Shown here one piece after another: positions 36,089-59,190 of a stretch of 64,000 nt of DNA (within the stretch, counting starts at the first letter, position 1; the number at the start of each line of letters is the position of its first letter). Position numbers and translations under genes: made by a program. Source of the stretch: Polytrichum commune (Eukaryota; Streptophyta; Polytrichopsida; Polytrichales; Polytrichaceae); NCBI GenBank assembly GCA_950295325.1, contig OX485805.1:7936501-8000500 (forward strand), read 5' to 3'. Under the pieces are notes generated by a model that made no database searches, had not been told where the DNA came from, and was given only the letters and a program-made list of their open reading frames with translations.

Positions 36089-37048
36089 TCAGTCTTCTTC
36101 ATCTGGTCTCCAGTTGTCATCATCATCCTCCTCCTCCTCTTCCTCACCTTCCTCCTCCGATGAACTTTCACCCCTCCAATCATCCCCACTTCCATCTTCA
36201 TTGTTCTCAACCCCAGAAGTTTCATCCGCGTCACCCACCTCTTCCCCATCGACCACCTTGGCCTTGACCTCTCTTTTCACTCTCTTTGCTGATGAGTTTC
36301 CTCCTGCAATTGCACCAGCATGCTCAGATGCTCTTACCAAGTGCACCTTGAGTTTCTTAGCAGAAAGGAGCTCAAACACACAAGCATCTCCTGCTTCAAG
36401 CTTATGCTCTTTCACAAACTTGGACCATCCATCCCCAAGCACACCACTGCTTGCCAGGAATGTAGACTCCCATTCTTTTTCATCTTCATCCTCTAAAGCA
36501 ACCTTCTCATCAACTTCAGGAAGGTTCCTCTTTCGGAATTTCTCTGGTACCTCCAAGAAATCTGTTGAGACGTGAGCATCCAGCAAAGACACTACAAAAC
36601 CAGGATTCTCGAGCTCCTTCTCGATATCTTCTGCAGCTTCAGTTGCCTCTAACCGCCCATCAGAAATTTCACGTGGAGGAGTTTTCCGATTCCTCCGCAG
36701 AGTGTACCGTGTCCGTACAACAGGTGATCCAGGTTCAGAGTCTGGATCAGATTCTGCCTCCGATTCATCAGATGATGCCACTGACTTGACTGATGCCTCC
36801 TTATCAGATTCATCTGATTCATCTGATTCTTGGGCTCTCCGAAGTTCTTCTTGGGCTTGAATGGCAGCTACACGTGTGGAACGACGTCTTTCCAGCCCCT
36901 GCTCCTCAAGCGTAAGCTTCTTTCTTTGCATCCGTGCAACTTTTGGTTTCTTCATGCTGGTGGATAACTGCATCAAGCCAAGTTCCTCCATACGTTTCTT
37001 GTTCTCTTCCATTCGTAGCTTCCGGGTTTCCTCATAAGTTGGCTCCAT
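36089..37048 (-). CDS. B3-domain nuclear protein (At3g19184/At5g42700-like)
   Basis: A single coding exon gives 319 aa from ATG 37048 to a stop at 36089. The N-terminus carries the family motif TYEETRKLRMEENKKRMEEL (4-23) and a basic patch (KKPKVARMQRKK, 33-44). A Ser/Asp/Glu-rich linker spans 74-107, followed by a basic RTRYTLRRNRK run (112-122). The B3 fold lies at about 149-240 (NPGFVVSLLDAHVSTDFLEV, then a KEWES...GDGWSKFV strand pair, then AGDACVFELL and KLKVHLVRA). The C-terminus is a long acidic tail (270-319). Plant B3 domains of this group bind DNA or chromatin in the nucleus. Targets are unknown. A splice acceptor (TCTATTGTAG, minus strand) just upstream at 37123 points to a non-coding first exon in the inverted-repeat arm near 39.7-39.9 kb. 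Confidence 0.9.
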   Translation of the reverse strand: MEPTYEETRKLRMEENKKRMEELGLMQLSTSMKKPKVARMQRKKLTLEEQGLERRRSTRVAAIQAQEELRRAQESDESDESDKEASVKSVASSDESEAESDPDSEPGSPVVRTRYTLRRNRKTPPREISDGRLEATEAAEDIEKELENPGFVVSLLDAHVSTDFLEVPEKFRKRNLPEVDEKVALEDEDEKEWESTFLASSGVLGDGWSKFVKEHKLEAGDACVFELLSAKKLKVHLVRASEHAGAIAGGNSSAKRVKREVKAKVVDGEEVGDADETSGVENNEDGSGDDWRGESSSEEEGEEEEEEDDDDNWRPDEED

Positions 37049-37122: not shown

Positions 37123-39688
37123 CTACAATAGAAGATTTGCCAATATTTGCAATTTTCAATATCACCAGCTGCATGAATGACCTACATCAAAGAAGAAACC
37201 TGCACAGGGTCATGCACAATGAGAAGGTATCACCGTCATTCTAGAGGGCTTCTATATGATAAAAGAAAATAACAATGGCAAGGAATATCTCAGCCACTAT
37301 TCCTCCGTCCAAGACACATTTCTCCACAGCACAACATCCATCTCACTGAAGGAAGCTAACACCAATTGTACAAAAAAATCTGCACAAAATCGTTATTACA
37401 TGACCAGGATGCACAACTGTCAACTGGCTATCAAGCAATGATACCTGACTGCAGATGGGTTTTCTAATTAATTCAGTCAAGCCTTTAGAACTGGCAATTT
37501 GTTAAAGCGTATTGATGAGATGACCAGAAAACCGTAGGTGCTTCCTGGTTCATCTTTTTTGATGCTGTGCTATAATAACCACATGGGATTTGAGTGGGTA
37601 TCAAGCACAATTAGACTGCCATGTGGAAAAATAAAATAAATAAATAAAATTAGTGAACCCAAAGAACGAAGCCCTCTACTGAAGTATCTTATAAAAACAG
37701 AGGTAAACCTGCTTTCCACATTAAGTTGATTGTAGTATTCTTGTATTTCTTCACAGATTAGCCAAAGCGCTCTAATATTAGAAGCATGAACACAAGATCA
37801 CCGAAGACTTTATTCTGACCCTTGTGCTGATAAAATCCCAGTATACTGAAGCATTAATTTTTGATCCACAAAGTACCATAAAGGCTCAAAAACCATCATG
37901 TAAACACCGACCATGTAATGTACTTCAGATTGCAATAGACTTCAGCACAGCAGATGTGTATGAGAGACTGCCATCGTCTTACAAGGGAATTTAAGCTCAT
38001 TTGAAGGTGCAACATCTTTTACAAAAAAAGGCATCTACCTGATTCTATGAGAACCATTCACTTTGTTAGTCAAATCCAGTTCCAAACACAGCCATCAGCA
38101 AGAATTATAATTTCTCCAAAGAACCAAGAGCCAAGATCGATCTCAAAGTACAAACAAGAGATTAAGGGAAGATCTTGACAAGGGAATAGTAATTGACCTT
38201 TACATTGGAGATCATATTTAACGGCCACTAGGCGTGTTCATCACATGGTGTGATTCAGAAGAGCTTGAGGAGTTCCCAAAAGCCTCAATCCTCTTTCTCT
38301 TTATCATTAACCACTTCGTTTGAAACCTGAAGCCACAGAAGAAATGAAAAAAATCAAGAGGTTACAATGAAGCTCAAGGGTGAGCTATGTTAAAAAATGA
38401 TTTCTATAAATACTAGAACAGTTGGATCCAGGGCAATCAATATGAAGCAACATATCAGTGACTAGAAGGAAGGCTACTAATAATAGGCATTAAGCTATTA
38501 AAGAAGATATACATGATGAGCTTGAATTTTCTTTGTGCATATAAACCCCTCTGGTCAAAGAAGGTATGGGCATTGTGCTATTCTGGCCAATTCGACATTA
38601 CCTAAGTAACAAACATGCCCGCAGGATCACCCCCTATGGGGACATGAAAGTAAACTTTCGCATATCAAAGTAAACTTGCCGCACTCCGCACTTTTGTACC
38701 TGGCTTCCAGAAGTGTAAACACCTCCCAACATGCCTCACGGAAGGAGGCAGCCATCTGCACAAACTGATAAAACAATCCAGGATGCAAAATAAGAGATAT
38801 CAGTTATCAAGTAGTTGACAAAAGTCATAAAGAGCCATATCTAAGTTAAGACACGCCAAGACATAAAAACTTAGAAGAGAAAAATTTGTGTCTTATTTTA
38901 TAAAACCTTGAACAGTCGTGTGTCAGCTTAAAAGTACATTACTTCCTAGCAGCCGGCTCAAAAGTTCCACATCCTCATATAGCACAAGGAGCAGAAACAG
39001 AAAGTATCTGCACATGCAAATATTCCCATGCAGTGCTCACATCACAAAGACCAAATAAGGTTACGCATTAAACCCCAAGACTTGTACTTAAACCAACTTG
39101 AAGATGAAGCAATACCATAATTCAGGCAGAGTCGCCTCTCTCTGCATTACCCTATTGTAGAGAGAATGGGACCGCTTGTTTTCAAACAACAAATCTTGGA
39201 ACCTAGGGGCTTGGCCTTGGGAGAGATACGAAGCCCCTTGGGAAAGACAGGTGCGGGCGGGCTTGTCCGGGTGTTCAAGGTGTTCAGCATTCTTCAGGGA
39301 GCTCTAATTCTCGTCATGTCTTTCCAGGATTACATATACACTTAGACCAACTCAAAGATGAACCAACACCATAATTCACGCCCATGCCAACATCGGAGTC
39401 ATCTCTCTCTATATATATATAACCTCGTTCCAGAAGGACTAGGACCCGAACACATAATCAACCGCTGGACTGAGGGTCCGACATCAAGCTGCCCTATACC
39501 AAGCTCCCAGAGACTACTCCAACCACATGAGAAGCCACTAAATAAACTAAATGCACAACAACCAAAACCCTCAACAAGCTAAATCCTCTCGTCGGAATTC
39601 ATATCCGCGAGCTAACCCTAACGCTCCTCAAAACACATCAACCAGAACAAATAACAGGCCGTAGAAAGCTCAAATGCAACCAAAATAC
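37123..39688 (-). other. Predicted 5' UTR intron of the B3 gene
   Basis: The acceptor is TCTATTGTAG (minus strand), with exon 2 starting at 37122. The donor CAG|GTATTTTGG at 39689/39688 is the counterpart of the FAM32A donor in the other arm. The 37150-39094 part is unique sequence without recognised genes. Additional small leader exons cannot be excluded. Confidence 0.45.
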
Positions 39689-40404
39689 CTGAATTTTTTG
39701 CAGAGAAGGACCGAAATGGCGGGCGAGAGAGATCCACAGCGGCTGAAGAATCTCAGTGATGATTCTCGATAAGTAGTGAAGAAGGCCCGTGAAGTGGCCT
39801 GGCCGATGCTCCGAGTGAAGGAGTGCCCGAGACTCCGAGAGGCAGTGAGAAACACAAGAGACGATGGATGGATGAGAAAGTCCTGGAGAGAGAGAATTTA
39901 CTGCATGCGAGGGTACCTCTCATCCATCCAATACAAAACCTTGACCCCTTATAGAATAGCATTTTTGTGTGCATTTTCAAGTGTTAGAAGATATGTAAAA
40001 GAATAGTATGTCACAGTCAATCAAGAATTAGTTTGTGTGTATAAAAATTTAACTATCACAGAGGACGCTCTATTTTATCTATACTAGGTGTTGGAATGTA
40101 GTTTCCATGTGGGATACAAGTGGCTTCGGCCAATGTGAGCATAACACATGTGAAAATTTGAAGGGATTTAAAAATAAAATAAAAATGTCATTATAGAGAA
40201 CCTTTACAGTGTGAGGGACATGTTGGATGTATGGAGGTGGATACAAATGGTTATAAATTAAGACATTTGAGTGTCTCCAACACCATTGTGGGTAATGCGA
40301 AGCTGCTCTTTCTTCGAAAGCCAACATCAATGTTCTATCAATGAAAGTAGACGTTTGCTCCGAGGTTAATATGCAACTTTGTCTAGAATGGCCTAATCAC
40401 TTCT
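39095..40404 (-). repeat. Left arm of a 1.3-kb inverted repeat: promoter and leader exon of the B3 gene
   Basis: The reverse complement of 39095-40404 aligns end to end with 44077-45388, with only about 30-40 differences by eye (about 97%). On the minus strand it holds a TATA-like CTATAAGG at about 39954-39947, a C/T-rich leader with no ATG, and a donor CAG|GTATTTTGG at 39688. The gene-proximal third contains two copies of a short unit, AAGATGAA(G/C)CAA.ACCATAATT. The distal part has relatives at 22976-23066. Confidence 0.9.
39689..39890 (-). promoter_or_regulatory. Predicted non-coding first exon of the B3 gene
   Basis: Mirror image of the FAM32A leader exon in the right arm. The leader is pyrimidine-rich (GATCTCTCTCGCCCGCC) and ends CAAAAAATTCAG before GT. 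The transcription start is not determined. Confidence 0.45.
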
Positions 40405-40542
40405 TACATTCATAAGATCATAATATGACCATTGCATGCCAATTGATATAACTTCATTTTCATTGACATATTCAATTTGAAGTGATCTACAATGACCTAT
40501 AGGGGGCTAGAGGGCCTATTAATCTACGAGTTGATTGGTTAG

Positions 40543-40565
40543 AATATATATATATATATATATAT
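40543..40565. repeat. (AT)n microsatellite
   Basis: About 11 TA units. Confidence 0.9.
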
Positions 40566-41021
40566 CAACAACAAATTAACAAGTCAATAAACAAATTAGT
40601 AGAGACTTTTCTTCCATCACAAGGTTCTATGGTCCTTACCTTAGGTGGTATTTGGTGTGTCTCATACAAAAATGTAGAAATGTCATTATCACTTTGATGT
40701 TACACCCTCCATAATTTGAACATTGCATTGCTTAGCAATGTGCTTTTGTATTTTGTTGGCCATGAGAATATAACCATGGGATGTTGAGAGCCCAATCTGG
40801 ATTTGAATCATCCCACAAGTTATGTTTTCATGGCTCACATAATGAAAGCACAGTGTTGAGTAATTCTATGACAAGTCAACCTTTAAGTCCCCCAATTGGG
40901 TATTACTTGGTTGGTGGTGACATGTCTTGTCAAATTGTTAACTCTTAAGGCATGGTCACATACAAAACAACATGGGGACACAAGAAACCCCGTATGCCTA
41001 ATTTATACCCATAAATCATAA

Positions 41022-41042
41022 CCCCTAAACCCTAAACCCTAG
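41022..41042. repeat. CCCTAAA telomere-type tract
   Basis: Nearly three units of CCCTAAA. Interstitial and short. Confidence 0.7.
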
Positions 41043-41563
41043 ATTTACAAAAGGGGGCCCTAAGGTTTAGAGAAAACTTTTACAATAACTACATTAGTTT
41101 TATCCAATCCACATTCATCCATTAATGTGATATGGTAAAAGTCCTCAATCACTCTCCTGTCCATTATTGTTAAGGTTCGCATTTGGGTTCTAGGACAAGC
41201 TCGAGGCTCTTGGAGTGCTCACAGGCTCCCTTGGGTTGTGCTCTCCATATTGTAACTAAGTTATTGTAATCTTGTAGTTGTTTGTTTCATGCAATCATTG
41301 AGCTACATGCTACGAATGAAAAAATGCTCAATGATTTTCTCATTAGACTTATGTTTTTGTGTATGTAGTGGAGGCATTTATCACATTACATTGAAAACCT
41401 CAGTATAATTACATGAGCCCATTAGAGCTTGCCATTAGTATGTATACATTTGTTTTTTCTTTATAGAATTCTCATATGTAGGGGATTTAATTTCATAGTT
41501 AACCATGCACGTCATTTAGGTTCCAATGAAGAGTCCACCTCTTGGGACAACTAGACTTCATTC

Positions 41564-41620
41564 ATATATATATATATATATAAGTGTAAGAGTGTACTTC
41601 ACACACACACACACACACAC
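41564..41620. repeat. (AT)n and (AC)n microsatellites
   Basis: (AT)n at 41564-41582 and (AC)n at 41599-41620, separated by 16 bp. Confidence 0.9.
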
Positions 41621-42448
41621 TTAGGGCCACTTCACACACGAGACTAAGAGCTTGTGACCAATACACTTCAAGCACTCTCATTGGTGGAAAAGGCGGAGTT
41701 GGTCCAAGTTCGCTTCACACTATGCTTGAAAGACCAACAGAGTATGTGATATGCAAGATGGATGTAAAGTCTACATGGATTCTTACATGGCAACAAATGG
41801 ATCATGTTTTATGGTCACTTGGACTATTTTCAAAAACCACCTCTTGGAGGTAGGCCTAACATAGAACCGGGAGCCATGGCACTCCGAAGACTCACAACTG
41901 TTGATTTATTCTACTATATCATGTGTGAGGACCCACATGAATAAAAATTCATTGAAATAGCATTCGGTTGAGGGCCCAAACACATATATGGCTTCACACT
42001 ACACTTGAGGGTCCATGACCACACTACATGATTTTGGAGGTGTCTTGGGATGGCATTTGGACACTTTTCTTGGGCTCTCACAATTTCATGGTCACGGCAA
42101 TTCCTATTGTTTGAAATGGCTCTAAAGTACACCAAGTACATAAATTCCTTTCGATTTGGCACTCATAATGGGATTAGGTGATGAAAGAACAAGTACACAC
42201 TTAGTACTCATTGTGAAGGTCATATAATTCAAATAACCACTCATTACTTAGATCCGTCTTGCGAAACACTATATGAATATGCGTATTTGTTGTACAAAGT
42301 GTGAGGGAAAGAATGTGCATGCCAATTTCCACTCGTGACTCTTGAAGTGACGTAACTTAATATACTTATGACTTTGAATTATGGAAAATTATATTTGATT
42401 ACGGTAGAAGTGCACATACTCCGTCATAGGATAACATGGACACCTATA

Positions 42449-42735
42449 TTTGAGTGATATGTGGTTAGGTGTGGAGCTAAGAACAGACACCACAAAGACA
42501 CATGTTTAAAAGAGATCAGACTACGTGGCAACTCAAAATATGCTAACTATTTTAGGGTTCATAGTCAATGTTATTGGTGGGTTGTATGACCACTTAATGA
42601 GCACGAGAATCTTCACTTCAATATTGAACAAGTTACTCATATGAGCTTCAAAAACGATGAGGCAAATGGCTTAACGACGCGATTTAAATTTGTTGATCAT
42701 CTCACACTAATGATGTGCTTCATATCTTCCTAGAC
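42449..42735 (-). repeat. Dispersed repeat R1, reverse arm
   Basis: Reverse orientation: ACACCTATATTTGAGTGATA, CATGTTTAAAAGAGATCAG, GAGCACGAGAATCTTCACTT, CATATGAGCTTCAAAAAC, CATCTCACACTAATGATG. It covers nearly the full arm. Confidence 0.75.
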
Positions 42736-43667
42736 GTGGGTGCATGAAGAAACGTATATGAATCAGACACATCTACCTTACCATACACCACCAACCATAC
42801 GTTTCAAACTTTATGCTAGACAATCCCAAAGAGAGACAGAGAGGGAATTATTGTATACAATCGTACCTCTCATCCATCCAACATAAAAACTTGACCCCTA
42901 TATATCTGTTGTTGATTCATGTCAAGTGACATTGAGTACACTAATCCAAGGTCTTTGAAGCAAATTCCAATGCCAAATCAACTAAAAACAAACCTCAAGC
43001 TACATACTATTTAAAGGATGTTATGTTGGATGAATGTAGCCAACCTTAGTATGGCATTGACAAAAATGTTGAGTAGACTATTATGTTCTCTCTTAAATTT
43101 GTAAAATATTAAATTCAATAATTCAGAACTCAATGCAGTTCCTGTGTCATTTTGAAAGCGAAGGTATTCTTTATTTATTTTAAATAAGTAATATTAATAA
43201 GAAAAAATATTTTTACATGCTTCCCTCAATAAGGTGACCCATAACCCCATTTTGTCATTTTGTTGAGGATATGACATACTCGATATTAGCAAGATGCTTC
43301 TTCCCAACCCTATCTAGAATCAACTCATCAAAGCCCCTTCATGAAACGCACGATTTAAACCGTTTGAGTATCTCAACGTAATTAAACATCCGGGGTTCAT
43401 CCATCCATCCATCCTATCTATCTATATATGCTCTTAGATGCAAGTACACAATTATCATTGTATATTTTATCATTGATGTCATATATGATTATTGTTTTGA
43501 TTTTTTCTTGTAAGACTAATATGCATCATATGAAGTTTCACATTCATAGATATAAAAACATAGGGTTTCAATTCTTGGTGAGGACTTGTAGAGATTGTGT
43601 ATGTAGGTCCGACATGGAGCCTCTTAGACATTTTAAAAGACAAAAGAGGGAGAAGGAACAAGTACAC

Positions 43668-43946
43668 TTAATTGTCCTATTAGTGTGGGTGGAACATTAA
43701 TGTGGGTCACTTTGATTGTCTTGTCAGGGTGGAAATAATGTGGGCCCAAGACCTCGGGTCATCGCTGAAGTCAACTTGGAGACTTAGTTAGATTAAAATA
43801 AAGTAGTCACCTACATCAATTTCCTACAAAAACGATTAATGTTTTCCACACTATTTCTAAAATGGAGGTTTGGCATGAGTTGAAAAATGATGTGGGTTCC
43901 ACGGAATTATTGTGGCCCACACTAATAGGATAATATAGTCTACCTA
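43668..43946. mobile_element. Small TIR element (MITE-like)
   Basis: Left end TTGTCCTATTAGTGTGGG. The right end is CCCACACTAATAGGATAA, giving terminal inverted repeats of about 15-20 bp. The interior is non-coding. Target duplications are unclear. Confidence 0.55.
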
Positions 43947-44076
43947 CTTGAGCGTGCTATTTCGGAATTAGTGTGTGTCCCTCCAAAAAGTTAAGATTCA
44001 TTTTACTTTCATCCACCATGGATTTTCTCATCCATCTACTGTGTCTTCTCGCCCTTCGCAAAGTTTCTTTGCGATT

Positions 44077-45388
44077 AGAAGTGATTAGGCCATTCTAGAC
44101 AAAGTTGCATATTAACCTCGGAGCAAACGTCCACTTTCATTCATGGAACATTGATGTTGGCTTTCGAAGAAAGAGCAGCTTCGCATTACCCACAATGATG
44201 TTGGAGACACTCAAATGTCTTAATTTATAACCATTTGTATCCACCTCCATACATCCAACATGTACCTCACACTGTAAAGGTTCTCTATAATGACAATTTT
44301 TTTATTTGTTTTTCAAATCCCTTCAAATTTTCACATGTGTTATGCTCACATTGGCCGAAGCCACTTGTATCCCACATGGAAACTACATTCCAACACCTAG
44401 TATCGATAAAATAGAGCGTCCTCTATGACAATTAAATTTTTATACACACAAACCAATTCTTGATTGAATGTGGCATACTTTTCTTTTACATGTCTTCTAA
44501 CACTTGAAAATGCACACAAAAATGCTATTCTATAAGGGGTCAAAGGTTTTGTGTTGGATGGATGAGAGGTACCCTCGCATGCAATAAATTCTCTCTCTCC
44601 AGGACTTTCTCATCCATCCATCGTCTCTTGTATTTCTCTCTGCCTCTCGGAGTCTCGGGCACTCCTTCACTCGGAGCATCGGCCAGGCCACTTCACGGGC
44701 GGTTTTCACTACTTATCGAGAATCATCACTGAGAATCTTCAGCCGCCGTGGATCTCTCTCGCCCGCCATTTCGGTCCTTCTCTGCAAAAATTTCAGGTGT
44801 TTTGGTTGCATCTGAGCTTTGTACGGCCTGTTATTTGTTCTGGTTGATGTGTTTTGAGGAGCGTTAGGGTTAGCTCGCGGATATGAATTCCGATGAGAGA
44901 ATTTAGCTTGTTGAGGGTTTTGGTTGTTGTGCATTTAGTTTATTTAGTGGCTTCTCATGTGGTTGGAGTAGTCTCTGGGAGCTTGGTATAGGGCAGCTTG
45001 ATGTCGGACGCTCAGTCCAGCGGTTGATTATGTGTTCGGGTCTTAGTCCTTCTGGAATGAGGTTATATATATAGAGAGAGATGACTCCGATGTTGGCATG
45101 GGCGTGAATTATGGTGTTGGTTCATCTTTGAGTTGGTCTAAGTGTATATGTAATCCTGGAAAGACATGACGAGAATTAGAGCTCCCTGAAGAATGCTGAA
45201 CACCTTGAACACCCGGACAAGCCCGCCCGCACCTGTCTTTCCCAAGGGGCTTCGTATCTCTCCCAAGGCCAAGCCCCTAGGTTCCAAGATTTGTTGGTTG
45301 AAGACAAGCGGTCCCATTCTCTCTACAATAGGGTAATGCAGAGAGAGGCGACTCTGCCTGAATTATGGTGTTGCTTCATCTTCAAGTT
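44077..45388 (+). repeat. Right arm of the 1.3-kb inverted repeat: promoter and leader exon of the FAM32A-like gene
   Basis: Inverted partner of 39095-40404. It holds a TATA-like CTATAAGG at 44530-44537, a C/T-rich leader, a donor TTTCAG|GTGTTTTGG at 44796/44797, and the first part of intron 1. The sequence from about 45100 has relatives at 59303-59385 (AATGGTGTTGCTTCAT, then TTGGTCTAAGTTTATATG). Confidence 0.9.
44600..44796 (+). promoter_or_regulatory. Predicted non-coding first exon of the FAM32A-like gene
   Basis: A leader without ATG, ending CAAAAATTTCAG before a GTGTTT donor. The matching acceptor is AATTTGCAG at about 45984, twenty bases before the start codon. The 5' end is not determined. 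Confidence 0.45.
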
Positions 45389-46003
45389 AATTTGAAGAGC
45401 AATGTCGAGGTTGCGTTATATTTAGGTTTCTATACTTTTTCTGAGCTCCTTGAAATTAGAAGTACGTTGAGTGTTGGAGAGTTAAATTATTTGAAATTGT
45501 GTATCGATCTTGCGGGATATCTTGGTTGTAATTACGGAGATGTACGGTTTAACCTAATTCGTATTTGCAACATGAACAGAGCATGGGTTGATTTACTGTT
45601 GCAAGTATGGTATATGATGAACTGTATGGAGGTCCCTAAGGAGTTGAAACAAGTAGGATATGAATGCAATAGCACTCATTGTGCTTTAATAGGATGTGCA
45701 AAAACTGTATTTTTCCTTCCAAGTAGGTGAATAATAGAGGCAAACCCTGAAAATCTGGTCTCTATCACCAATGATTCTACGGTTCCAGAGGGCTTATCAA
45801 GTGATGTGAAATTTCCTTTCCAAAGTAGTTTATTTAACAAGTTAATAAATGTTCCAGTAGAGCATATTTGAGAAATTACATGACGATGGGTTATCAACGT
45901 GCTTACATAGATTCCAGATACATTGTGGCAGCAACTAAGTGGCAAACAAGCACTCATACTTCCGTTCAACACTCAATTTGCAGGTTACACTTGACAAGCA
46001 CAA

Positions 46004-46414
46004 ATGTCTTTCTCTAATGTGGTTGGAGGGAAGCTCAAGCTCAAAGGGAAGGCATTGGATGTGAAGGCAGGTGGAATGAAGAAAAAGAAGAAGAGAGAAC
46101 AAACGCAACAACAGCTTCGCTTGCTCACAGAACATGGTGGTACAGAAGAGCTTCCCAGCAGCCTTGAAGAACAGGAAGGGTCTCAAGGAGGTCGAGGACA
46201 TGAGGGGGAAGAAGGTAGAGAGGGGCAGCAAGCTCCAGTCGAGGATCACAGGACTCCAGCAGAGAAGAGATACCATGAGCAGAAGATTAAACTGGAAGCA
46301 AAACGCCTGGCTAAAGTGGAAAGCAAGAGTCATCGCCAAAGAGTCGAAGAATTCAATCAGTATTTAGCAAATCTTAGTGAGCACTATGATATTCCAAAAG
46401 TGGGGCCTGGTTAA
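46004..46414 (+). CDS. FAM32A-like protein (DUF1754)
   Basis: A single coding exon of 136 aa. Family features in order: KLKLKGKALDV (10-20), a lysine tract (26-30), an acidic Gly/Glu-rich middle (45-78), RTPAEKRYHEQK (83-94), and the hallmark C-terminus SHRQRVEEFNQYLANLSEHY (109-128), ending DIPKVGPG. Human FAM32A has the same order, about 112 aa, and ends EHYDIPKVSWTK. The family is small and nuclear, and animal FAM32A associates with the spliceosome. A role here is inferred only from the family. The acceptor AATTTGCAG immediately upstream joins the leader exon in the inverted-repeat arm. The gene diverges from the B3 gene. Confidence 0.92.
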   Translation: MSFSNVVGGKLKLKGKALDVKAGGMKKKKKREQTQQQLRLLTEHGGTEELPSSLEEQEGSQGGRGHEGEEGREGQQAPVEDHRTPAEKRYHEQKIKLEAKRLAKVESKSHRQRVEEFNQYLANLSEHYDIPKVGPG

Positions 46415-55394: not shown

Positions 55395-56164
55395 TGTGAT
55401 ACAGTTGGATTGAAATGTTTAATGTTGGTTTGATTATGCAAAGAAAGAAAGACTAATCATATTGTGTCGTACTTAGCATGTAAGCGGATGGTGCTTAGAG
55501 TTAGACAACTCCAAAGAAATAATTGGGTCAGACAACCCAAGAAAGAATGGTGCACAAGGGCTAGACAGCCCATGAAGGAATTATGCACGGGAGTTAGAAA
55601 ACCTCAACTAAGAGTTAAACACCTCATTCTGGAAAGATCTTTGTGTTGACGCTAGACACATCCTTTTGGAAGATCTTTGTATTGGAGTTGGACACCTCCA
55701 ACTGGAGGATATGGATCATAGATAGACAACTCCCAGCATATAGGTGTTATTCATTGGAGCTAGGCAACTCTCAATGAACAAATGAATCTAGTTGGAATTA
55801 GATAGTTCCAACTAGAAGAGTAGATGAACGCATCATTGGAATTAGACAATTCTAACTAGTAAATTGTGATCGAGCCTAAAGATAGAAGATTCATAGTAGA
55901 ACCAAAGATGGAGTTATAAGTAGAGACTTTTACTTTATGAGAATTAGAAAGTAAAATTAGTGCTTTGGCATAAAAGGGAGCTTGGGGGAGAAGAGAAGAT
56001 CTTTTGTCCCTCTCCTATGGTGTGGTGGTTTGAGCTCATAGGCAGTCACAATCTTGTGATTAAGTTGTAAAGCTTTTGTAATATACAAAGTTGGAAGTTC
56101 ATAATCTAGCATTTTATGTGCATTTTTTAGTGTATTATTGTTGTGGAGAAAGAGGAACGTGACA
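55395..56164 (+). mobile_element. Solo-LTR-like element A with hairpin array
   Basis: Starts TGTGATACAG and ends GAACGTGACA, so the ends are TG...CA with a short inverted TGT(G/C)A. The flanks CCCGA and CCCAA may be a worn target duplication. About 55493-55858 holds a quasi-periodic array of small hairpins. A TATA-like CATAAAAGGG at about 55968 and a downstream AT-rich tail resemble a U3-R-U5 order. No internal coding region. An inverted relative lies at 58330-59190. It looks old. The family is not assignable. Confidence 0.5.
55493..55858. repeat. Array of about ten small hairpins with AGAC loops
   Basis: Units spaced about 30-40 bp share an AGACA/AGATA core between inverted stems whose sequences differ: GAGTT-AGAC-AACTC, TTGGGT-CAGACA-ACCCAA, GGGCT-AGAC-AGCCC, TTGGAG...CTCCAA, and a perfect 10-bp stem CTAGTTGGAA/TTCCAACTAG at 55788-55815. 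Both sides of a stem often change together. A few units are weak or lack one side. Confidence 0.7.
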
Positions 56165-58329: not shown

Positions 58330-59190
58330 CTTTTTTTACATTGGAATAATACAAGCATGAATGCACACGTGACACCAATATTGAGAACTTTCAAACTTTG
58401 TATATTACGAATGCTTTACAACTCCATCACAATATTGTGATTGCTATGAGCTTGAACCACCCAACCGCATGAGAGATCAAAGGTGATCCTCACTCCTCCC
58501 CTGAGTCTTTTTTTAATACCCAAAGGCAATCCTAGTCTATCCATCTTTATCCATATTATATAAGATATATATTTTAGAAGTATGGAATCTTATTAAATTT
58601 AGAGTGAAGTTTCCTTAACTATATACATAGATCATTTCACCGCATGGTATTTTTCTTATCTTTTGGCTCAATCACAATCATCTAGTTGGAACTATCTAAT
58701 TCCAACTTGATGCATTTATCATTCTTCTAATTCGAATTGTTTAAGTGCGACGTGATCCAACCATCCATTCTTCTAGTTGGAGATGTTTAACTACAACTTG
58801 GTTCATTCATTCATCCATTCTTAGACAATTCCAACTATATTTATTTATTGAGAGTTGTCTAGCTCCAATGAATAAAATCCATTCGTTGGGAGTTGTCTAA
58901 CTCCAATACAAAGATCTCCCAGAGGAGGGTGTCTAATTCCTAGTTGGAGTTATCTAACTTCAACACAAAGATCTTGGATAAGGAGGTGTCCAACTCCCAT
59001 GCATAATTCTTTCATGGGTTGTCTAGCCCTTGTGCACCATTCTCTCTTGAGTTGTCTGTCCCAATTATTTCATTGGAGTTGTCTGACTCCAAACACCATA
59101 TGCTTGCATGCTAAGTACATCAAAGTGTGGTCAGTCTTTCTTCCTTGCATCATCCAACATTAGATATTTTAATCCAGGTTTATCACAACA
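58330..59190 (-). mobile_element. Solo-LTR-like element B, inverted relative of element A
   Basis: The reverse complement aligns with 55395-56164 throughout: AAGAAAGACT, TACTTAGCATG, AATGGTGCACAAGGGCTAGA, AAGATCTTTGT, TAATATACAAAGTT and GAACGT.ACA. The two copies are clearly diverged (perhaps 75-80% by eye), so they are not a recent pair. They face opposite directions and so are not the two LTRs of one element. Confidence 0.55.
58683..59096. repeat. Hairpin array in element B
   Basis: Same units as 55493-55858 on the other strand with GTCT loops: AGTTGGAA...TTCCAACT, TTGGAGT-TGTCTG-ACTCCAA, GAGTT-GTCT-AACTC. Some units differ from copy A in both arms of the stem. Confidence 0.65.

Follow-up and report, generated by a model that had tools for sequence, protein, structure and literature searches.

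Inverted copies of a promoter-like and first-exon-like block before two unrelated, divergent genes in Polytrichum commune

Introduction

How two unrelated genes could come to stand behind nearly the same promoter-like and first-exon-like sequence is the question raised by a locus of Polytrichum commune (assembly GCA_950295325.1), where a B3-domain gene and a FAM32A gene face away from each other and two inverted copies of a 1.3-kb block lie between them. The locus belongs to a window of 64,000 nt (C3:7936501-8000500, contig OX485805.1), which is the whole stretch of DNA analyzed here and to which all positions given without a contig name refer. The genome searched comprises 407.8 Mb in 64 contigs, with C1-C7 making up about 406 Mb. 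An initial annotation of the window proposed that the two copies, or arms, arose by an inverted duplication that gave a second gene a ready-made promoter and first exon. The evidence presented below suggests that the block was copied from the B3 side to the FAM32A side.

Results

The left arm occupies 39095-40404 on the minus strand and the right arm 44077-45388 on the plus strand, with an inner distance of 3672 nt and with sharp ends. Local alignment of the arms gives an identity of 96.7% (1314 columns, 37 mismatches, 5 gap openings), and a global, end-to-end comparison gives 38 mismatches over 1308 aligned sites, 3 gap events and a Kimura two-parameter (K2P) distance of 0.030. The initial annotation had placed the arms at exactly these positions, at about 97% identity and 3.67 kb apart. 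It had also proposed the alignment that has now been carried out over 1314 columns, and had taken the high identity as a sign of a young event or of ongoing gene conversion, the first of which the 96.7% supports. The 1.3-kb inverted repeat is far above chance expectation: an ungapped scan of the 64-kb window for inverted pairs (minimum 60 nt, seed 16) recovered it as four pieces, compared with which the longest other pair measures 158 nt at 86%. This second, shorter pair lies at 55441-55598 and 58989-59146. Full-length matches to an arm number two in the genome, namely the arms themselves, and the same is true of the arm core.

Both arms carry CTATAAGGGG, in which TATAAG begins at 44531 in the right arm and at 39953 in the left, and both carry a TTCAG/GT donor, the last exon base being 44796 on the right and 39689 on the left; the TATA-like box and splice donor are common to the two arms, as first proposed. 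With the start site placed about 32 nt below the TATA box, a putative leader exon would occupy 39689-39921 on the minus strand in the left arm (donor TTCAG/GTATTT) and 44563-44796 on the plus strand in the right arm (donor TTCAG/GTGTTT). The description of this leader as ATG-less proved wrong. An ATG-CAR-TAA unit begins at 44579 in the right arm and at 39906 in the left, forming on the right a two-codon upstream open reading frame (ORF), ATG CAA TAA, at 44579-44587 on the plus strand (left-arm counterpart 39906-39898), and further ATGs are found at the expected start site (44558 and 44562 on the right, 39927 and 39923 on the left).

The identities proposed for the two genes are borne out by Pfam. 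The B3-domain protein (319 aa; PF02362, E 1.1e-16) is encoded at 36089-37048 on the minus strand. FAM32A (136 aa; PF08555, E 2.6e-13), which has a single match genome-wide, is encoded at 46004-46414 on the plus strand. An acceptor just before each ATG had been claimed as well. For FAM32A this holds, with a putative exon start at 45984 and the ATG at 46004, but on the B3 side there is only a candidate acceptor, about 75 nt upstream of the ATG. The signals in the arms, together with these genes, support the presence of a promoter-like and first-exon-like block in inverted copies before two unrelated genes.

If one arm is a copy of the other, repeats found elsewhere in the genome should cross the edges of the original and break at the edges of the copy. 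A large share of each arm is in fact dispersed repeat (the match counts given are lower bounds, with the best 40 candidates scored per search), and both ends of the arms could be compared in this way. At the inner edge, a dispersed repeat at 40322-40438 spans the end of the left arm. All five dispersed copies that overlap the arm end pass the left edge by 18-42 nt, with 13-32 nt matching, and the same five extend just 0-3 nt beyond the right arm. At the outer edge, a repeat some 230-250 nt long that often occurs in tandem lies at 39086-39410 on the minus strand and extends beyond the left arm. Fourteen of its loci, a subset of 49 further matches, were compared: 12 of the 14 extend at least 7 nt beyond the left edge, mostly with 7-8 of 9 nt matching, and 10 of the 14 end exactly at the edge of the right arm.

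The right arm also stands where an upstream block, which we call P2 (43464-44072, plus strand), is cut off. P2 is 92% identical to a block before a dCMP-deaminase-like gene on C2. It ends at 44072, and the three relatives that reach this point all run on past it together, while more remote matches end short of the start of the right arm. We rejected the idea that P2 is a transposon whose end meets the arm, as three out of three relatives reaching that point extend further. Because the repeats cross the left edges and mostly end at the right edges, and because P2 breaks at the right arm, the right, FAM32A-side arm looks copied and the left, B3-side arm looks native; the inner copies (5/5), the outer loci (12/14) and the P2 cut all point to a one-way transfer with the left arm as its donor.

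Sequence outside the arms shows a much older relationship. Both outer flanks match a single locus, C7:40733328-40734019, at 67-79%. The right flank at 45408-45642 (plus strand) is 67% identical to C7:40733762-40734019 over 261 columns. On the left, 38626-38913 (minus strand) matches at 67% over 300 columns, and 39016-39072 (minus strand) at 79% over 57. This last 57-nt stretch is common to the left flank, the right flank and C7 and is where the flanks overlap. In shuffle tests the observed score was attained by 0 of 1000 shuffles for left against C7, for right against C7 and for left against right alike. When the C7 stretch was used as the query, the genome yielded three candidates, C7 itself and the two flanks. 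As both flanks match one C7 locus and overlap there, the two sides look like old relatives, far more diverged than the arms. An ORF on C7 downstream of the flank-related stretch has no Pfam match. For the inner flanks, 40405-41609 on the left was compared with the reverse-complemented 42130-44076, and this gave nothing below E 0.1.

The differences between the arms are spread unevenly, with 3/324 in the outer repeat, 8/272 in the intron part, 9/233 in the leader exon, 9/134 in the promoter, 1/106 in the 105-nt repeat and 8/239 in the distal part. The TATA box belongs to a 70-nt dispersed repeat (39884-39954, minus strand), with at least 39 further matches among the best 40 of 223 candidates; of eight dispersed copies examined, three keep TATAAG, four have a variant and one lacks that end. 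The spacer holds a third copy of this repeat, at 42838-42904 and in the same orientation as the left arm, which reads TATATAGGGG. Another dispersed repeat, of about 105 nt, lies within the arm at 40054-40166, and the spacer holds a high-copy repeat at 41619-42124 on the plus strand, 81-90% identical to its best copies. The middle of the arm (39425-39880), comprising the putative leader exon and donor, occurs at full length in the two arms alone (four of four candidates scored). Its partial copies are two pieces of 47-48 nt, on C4 and C3. They correspond to 44630-44677 of the right leader exon, to which they are 96% identical, and the two loci that contain them (L089 and L090) are 93% alike over 379 columns. 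Scanning the window for Rfam families and tRNAs gave no match.

Between the left arm and the B3 gene lies a candidate exon that starts with ATG (38705-38760, minus strand) and has acceptor and donor consensus sequences. Of its 44 sites aligned with C7, 39 match, with one 12-nt gap, and the sites around it match at 104/143 upstream and 62/77 downstream. No Pfam match was obtained for the two versions of it that were scanned. The gap relative to C7 (L059, near 3950-3900) keeps the reading frame, and the segment is a possible upstream ORF or small peptide. Given this candidate exon between the arm and B3, the left arm may serve another transcript, or may add an upstream ORF to B3. Paralogs of the B3 gene were considered as carriers of the leader and rejected, as judged by genomic position: the best-matching B3 relatives lie at C7:6.62M and C3:12.27M and not at C7:40.73M, the locus akin to the flanks.

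P2 and a following leader-like sequence are found upstream of differing sequences on C2, on C1 and at C3:21.5M (L016, L060 and L061). After the C1 copy of P2, exon pieces resembling a methyltransferase and an isocitrate dehydrogenase come next, as judged by eye. The 92% of P2 against the 97% of the arms fits, weakly, a younger arm, and the true source of P2 may differ from C2. The C2 dCMP-deaminase-like locus shares two further pieces with the window: 38788-38869 (82 nt, 95%; L016 8458-8539), which falls in the C7-like stretch of the left flank, and 37348-37399 (52 nt, 92%; L016 8969-9020), which is found also at C7:13981484 (96%). Exchange may thus have run both ways.

Discussion

We favor, with slightly better than even confidence, a left-to-right copying of the leader block of about 1.3 kb, by ectopic gene conversion or by repair-templated copying between distantly related regions. 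The left arm would be native to its position upstream of the B3 side, and about 1.3 kb of it, from distal upstream sequence through the TATA box, the putative leader exon and the donor to the start of the first intron, would have been copied in inverted orientation before FAM32A. There the copied block would have replaced or displaced the prior sequence, with P2 breaking at the start of the arm and the FAM32A intron resuming at its end. An active leader would mean that FAM32A transcripts start from a close copy of the left promoter and are spliced from 44796 to 45984. We prefer conversion or repair copying to transposition because the outer flanks themselves look like old diverged relatives, and because a young tract of 1.3 kb, edges that point one way, related flanks of greater age and no abutting target-site duplication together fit copying better.

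Several observations weigh against this reading. In the outer-edge test, L007 runs 3 nt past the left edge and 7 past the right, L016 runs 6 nt past the left and 1 past the right with the better score on the right, L023 runs 9 nt left and 3 right, and L024 runs 42 nt left and 9 right with nearly equal scores. At the same edge, the order from the right arm to 45408 is collinear with C7, in a part that the left lacks, and this collinearity alone would favor the right side as the older arrangement there. Compared directly, the left and right flanks share only a short, weak match (55 columns, 67%, E 0.012), and 2 of 1000 shuffles attain the score of the left piece against the whole right flank. 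Within the arms, the promoter is the most diverged segment and not the most conserved. The original proposal is weakened in that the TATA box, as a member of the dispersed 70-nt repeat, is not peculiar to the leader. The two 47-48-nt pieces of the leader exon are nearer the right arm than the left, to which they are 91-92% identical. The claim that the left arm points at B3 is likewise weakened by the candidate exon that intervenes.

The closest alternative is that the left block was duplicated recently beside FAM32A, inverted and in a single step, with no older kinship of the two sides and with the likeness to C7 stemming from scattered old repeats. The near identity of the arms suits it, both edge tests mark the right arm as the newcomer here too, and the weakness of the direct left-right flank match speaks in its favor. 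What it leaves unexplained is that both flanks are kin to the same C7 locus, with no other relatives among the candidates found, and that they overlap there in the 57-nt stretch; we regard it as possible but doubtful. Of the original proposal, then, the inverted leader-like copies and the young event stand, and a direction, apparently from left to right, can be added. Alternatively, B3 and FAM32A could have long shared kin promoter-plus-first-exon leaders that were kept alike by recurrent conversion, the regulatory link evolving in concert. Old flanks (about 67%) adjoining young arms (97%) would be expected in that case, and the uneven divergence of the arms (from 3/324 to 9/134) and one identical run of 223 nt, which has a probability of 0.029 under uniform placement, agree with it. 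Only one young tract is seen, however, and one event in one direction would account for both edge tests; we find recurrent conversion distinctly improbable.

Arms that form long inverted repeats and hold dispersed repeats also recall a transposon bounded by long terminal inverted repeats, comprising either the full 6.3-kb structure or just the right arm. Three comparisons, of the whole structure, the right arm and the left arm, revealed no abutting target-site duplication; the genome holds only two full arm copies, and repeats cross the edges of the left arm. The sole stop-to-stop ORF of at least 90 aa in the spacer, the one scanned for a transposase, has no Pfam match, although non-autonomous elements would lack a transposase in any case. 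With no target-site duplications, no further copies and no Pfam match in the spacer ORF, a transposon having the arms as its terminal repeats was rejected, and we give an element of either extent hardly any weight. As inverted repeats are prone to misassembly, a false fold-back in the assembly must be considered too. Speaking against one are the 38 sites at which the arms differ, their unlike flanks and the single occurrence of each arm; the right arm is moreover set between P2 and a C7-related flank, and the chance that the structure is such an artefact seems to us very slight. Copying from left to right thus remains the reading we favor.

In divergent gene pairs with a bidirectional promoter, the genes face away from a common interval and may be co-regulated. 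The arrangement described here differs in that two separate copies of a leader lie 3.7 kb apart, in place of a single shared promoter. B3 and FAM32A may share regulation through the near-identical putative leader. Hairpin extrusion and antisense leader RNA, also suggested by the initial annotation, would be further possible consequences of the inverted repeat.

Repair of breaks can leave short duplications whose donors are ectopic, as a review describes, including a study in rice (PMC7407515). Ectopic gene conversion and repair-templated duplication resemble the proposed event in that sequence is copied over or beside a related one and that the tracts have sharp ends. Here, by contrast, the tract would bring what is presumed to be the promoter and first exon of one gene, inverted, to an unrelated one. 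A parallel in outcome is human HYDIN2, which gained a promoter through layered duplications, one of them inverted (PMC5345166). There, too, the promoter and first exon that a gene uses were provided by a duplicated segment. The HYDIN2 case was proven by 5′ RACE (rapid amplification of cDNA ends) and long cDNAs and involves blocks of tens to hundreds of kilobases, whereas the putative case in P. commune concerns a block of 1.3 kb and adjacent divergent genes. Judged at the level of search results, we found no report of a leader common to two unrelated plant genes within an inverted repeat.

If transcripts confirm the proposed first exons, this locus would offer a compact example, open to dating, of copying that equips a gene with the promoter and first exon of its unrelated neighbor, in which donor and recipient could be inferred from the edges of the copied tract. 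One could then ask directly whether genes that have a leader in common are also expressed alike, and whether the regulatory sequences of different genes can be kept similar by conversion between inverted repeats.

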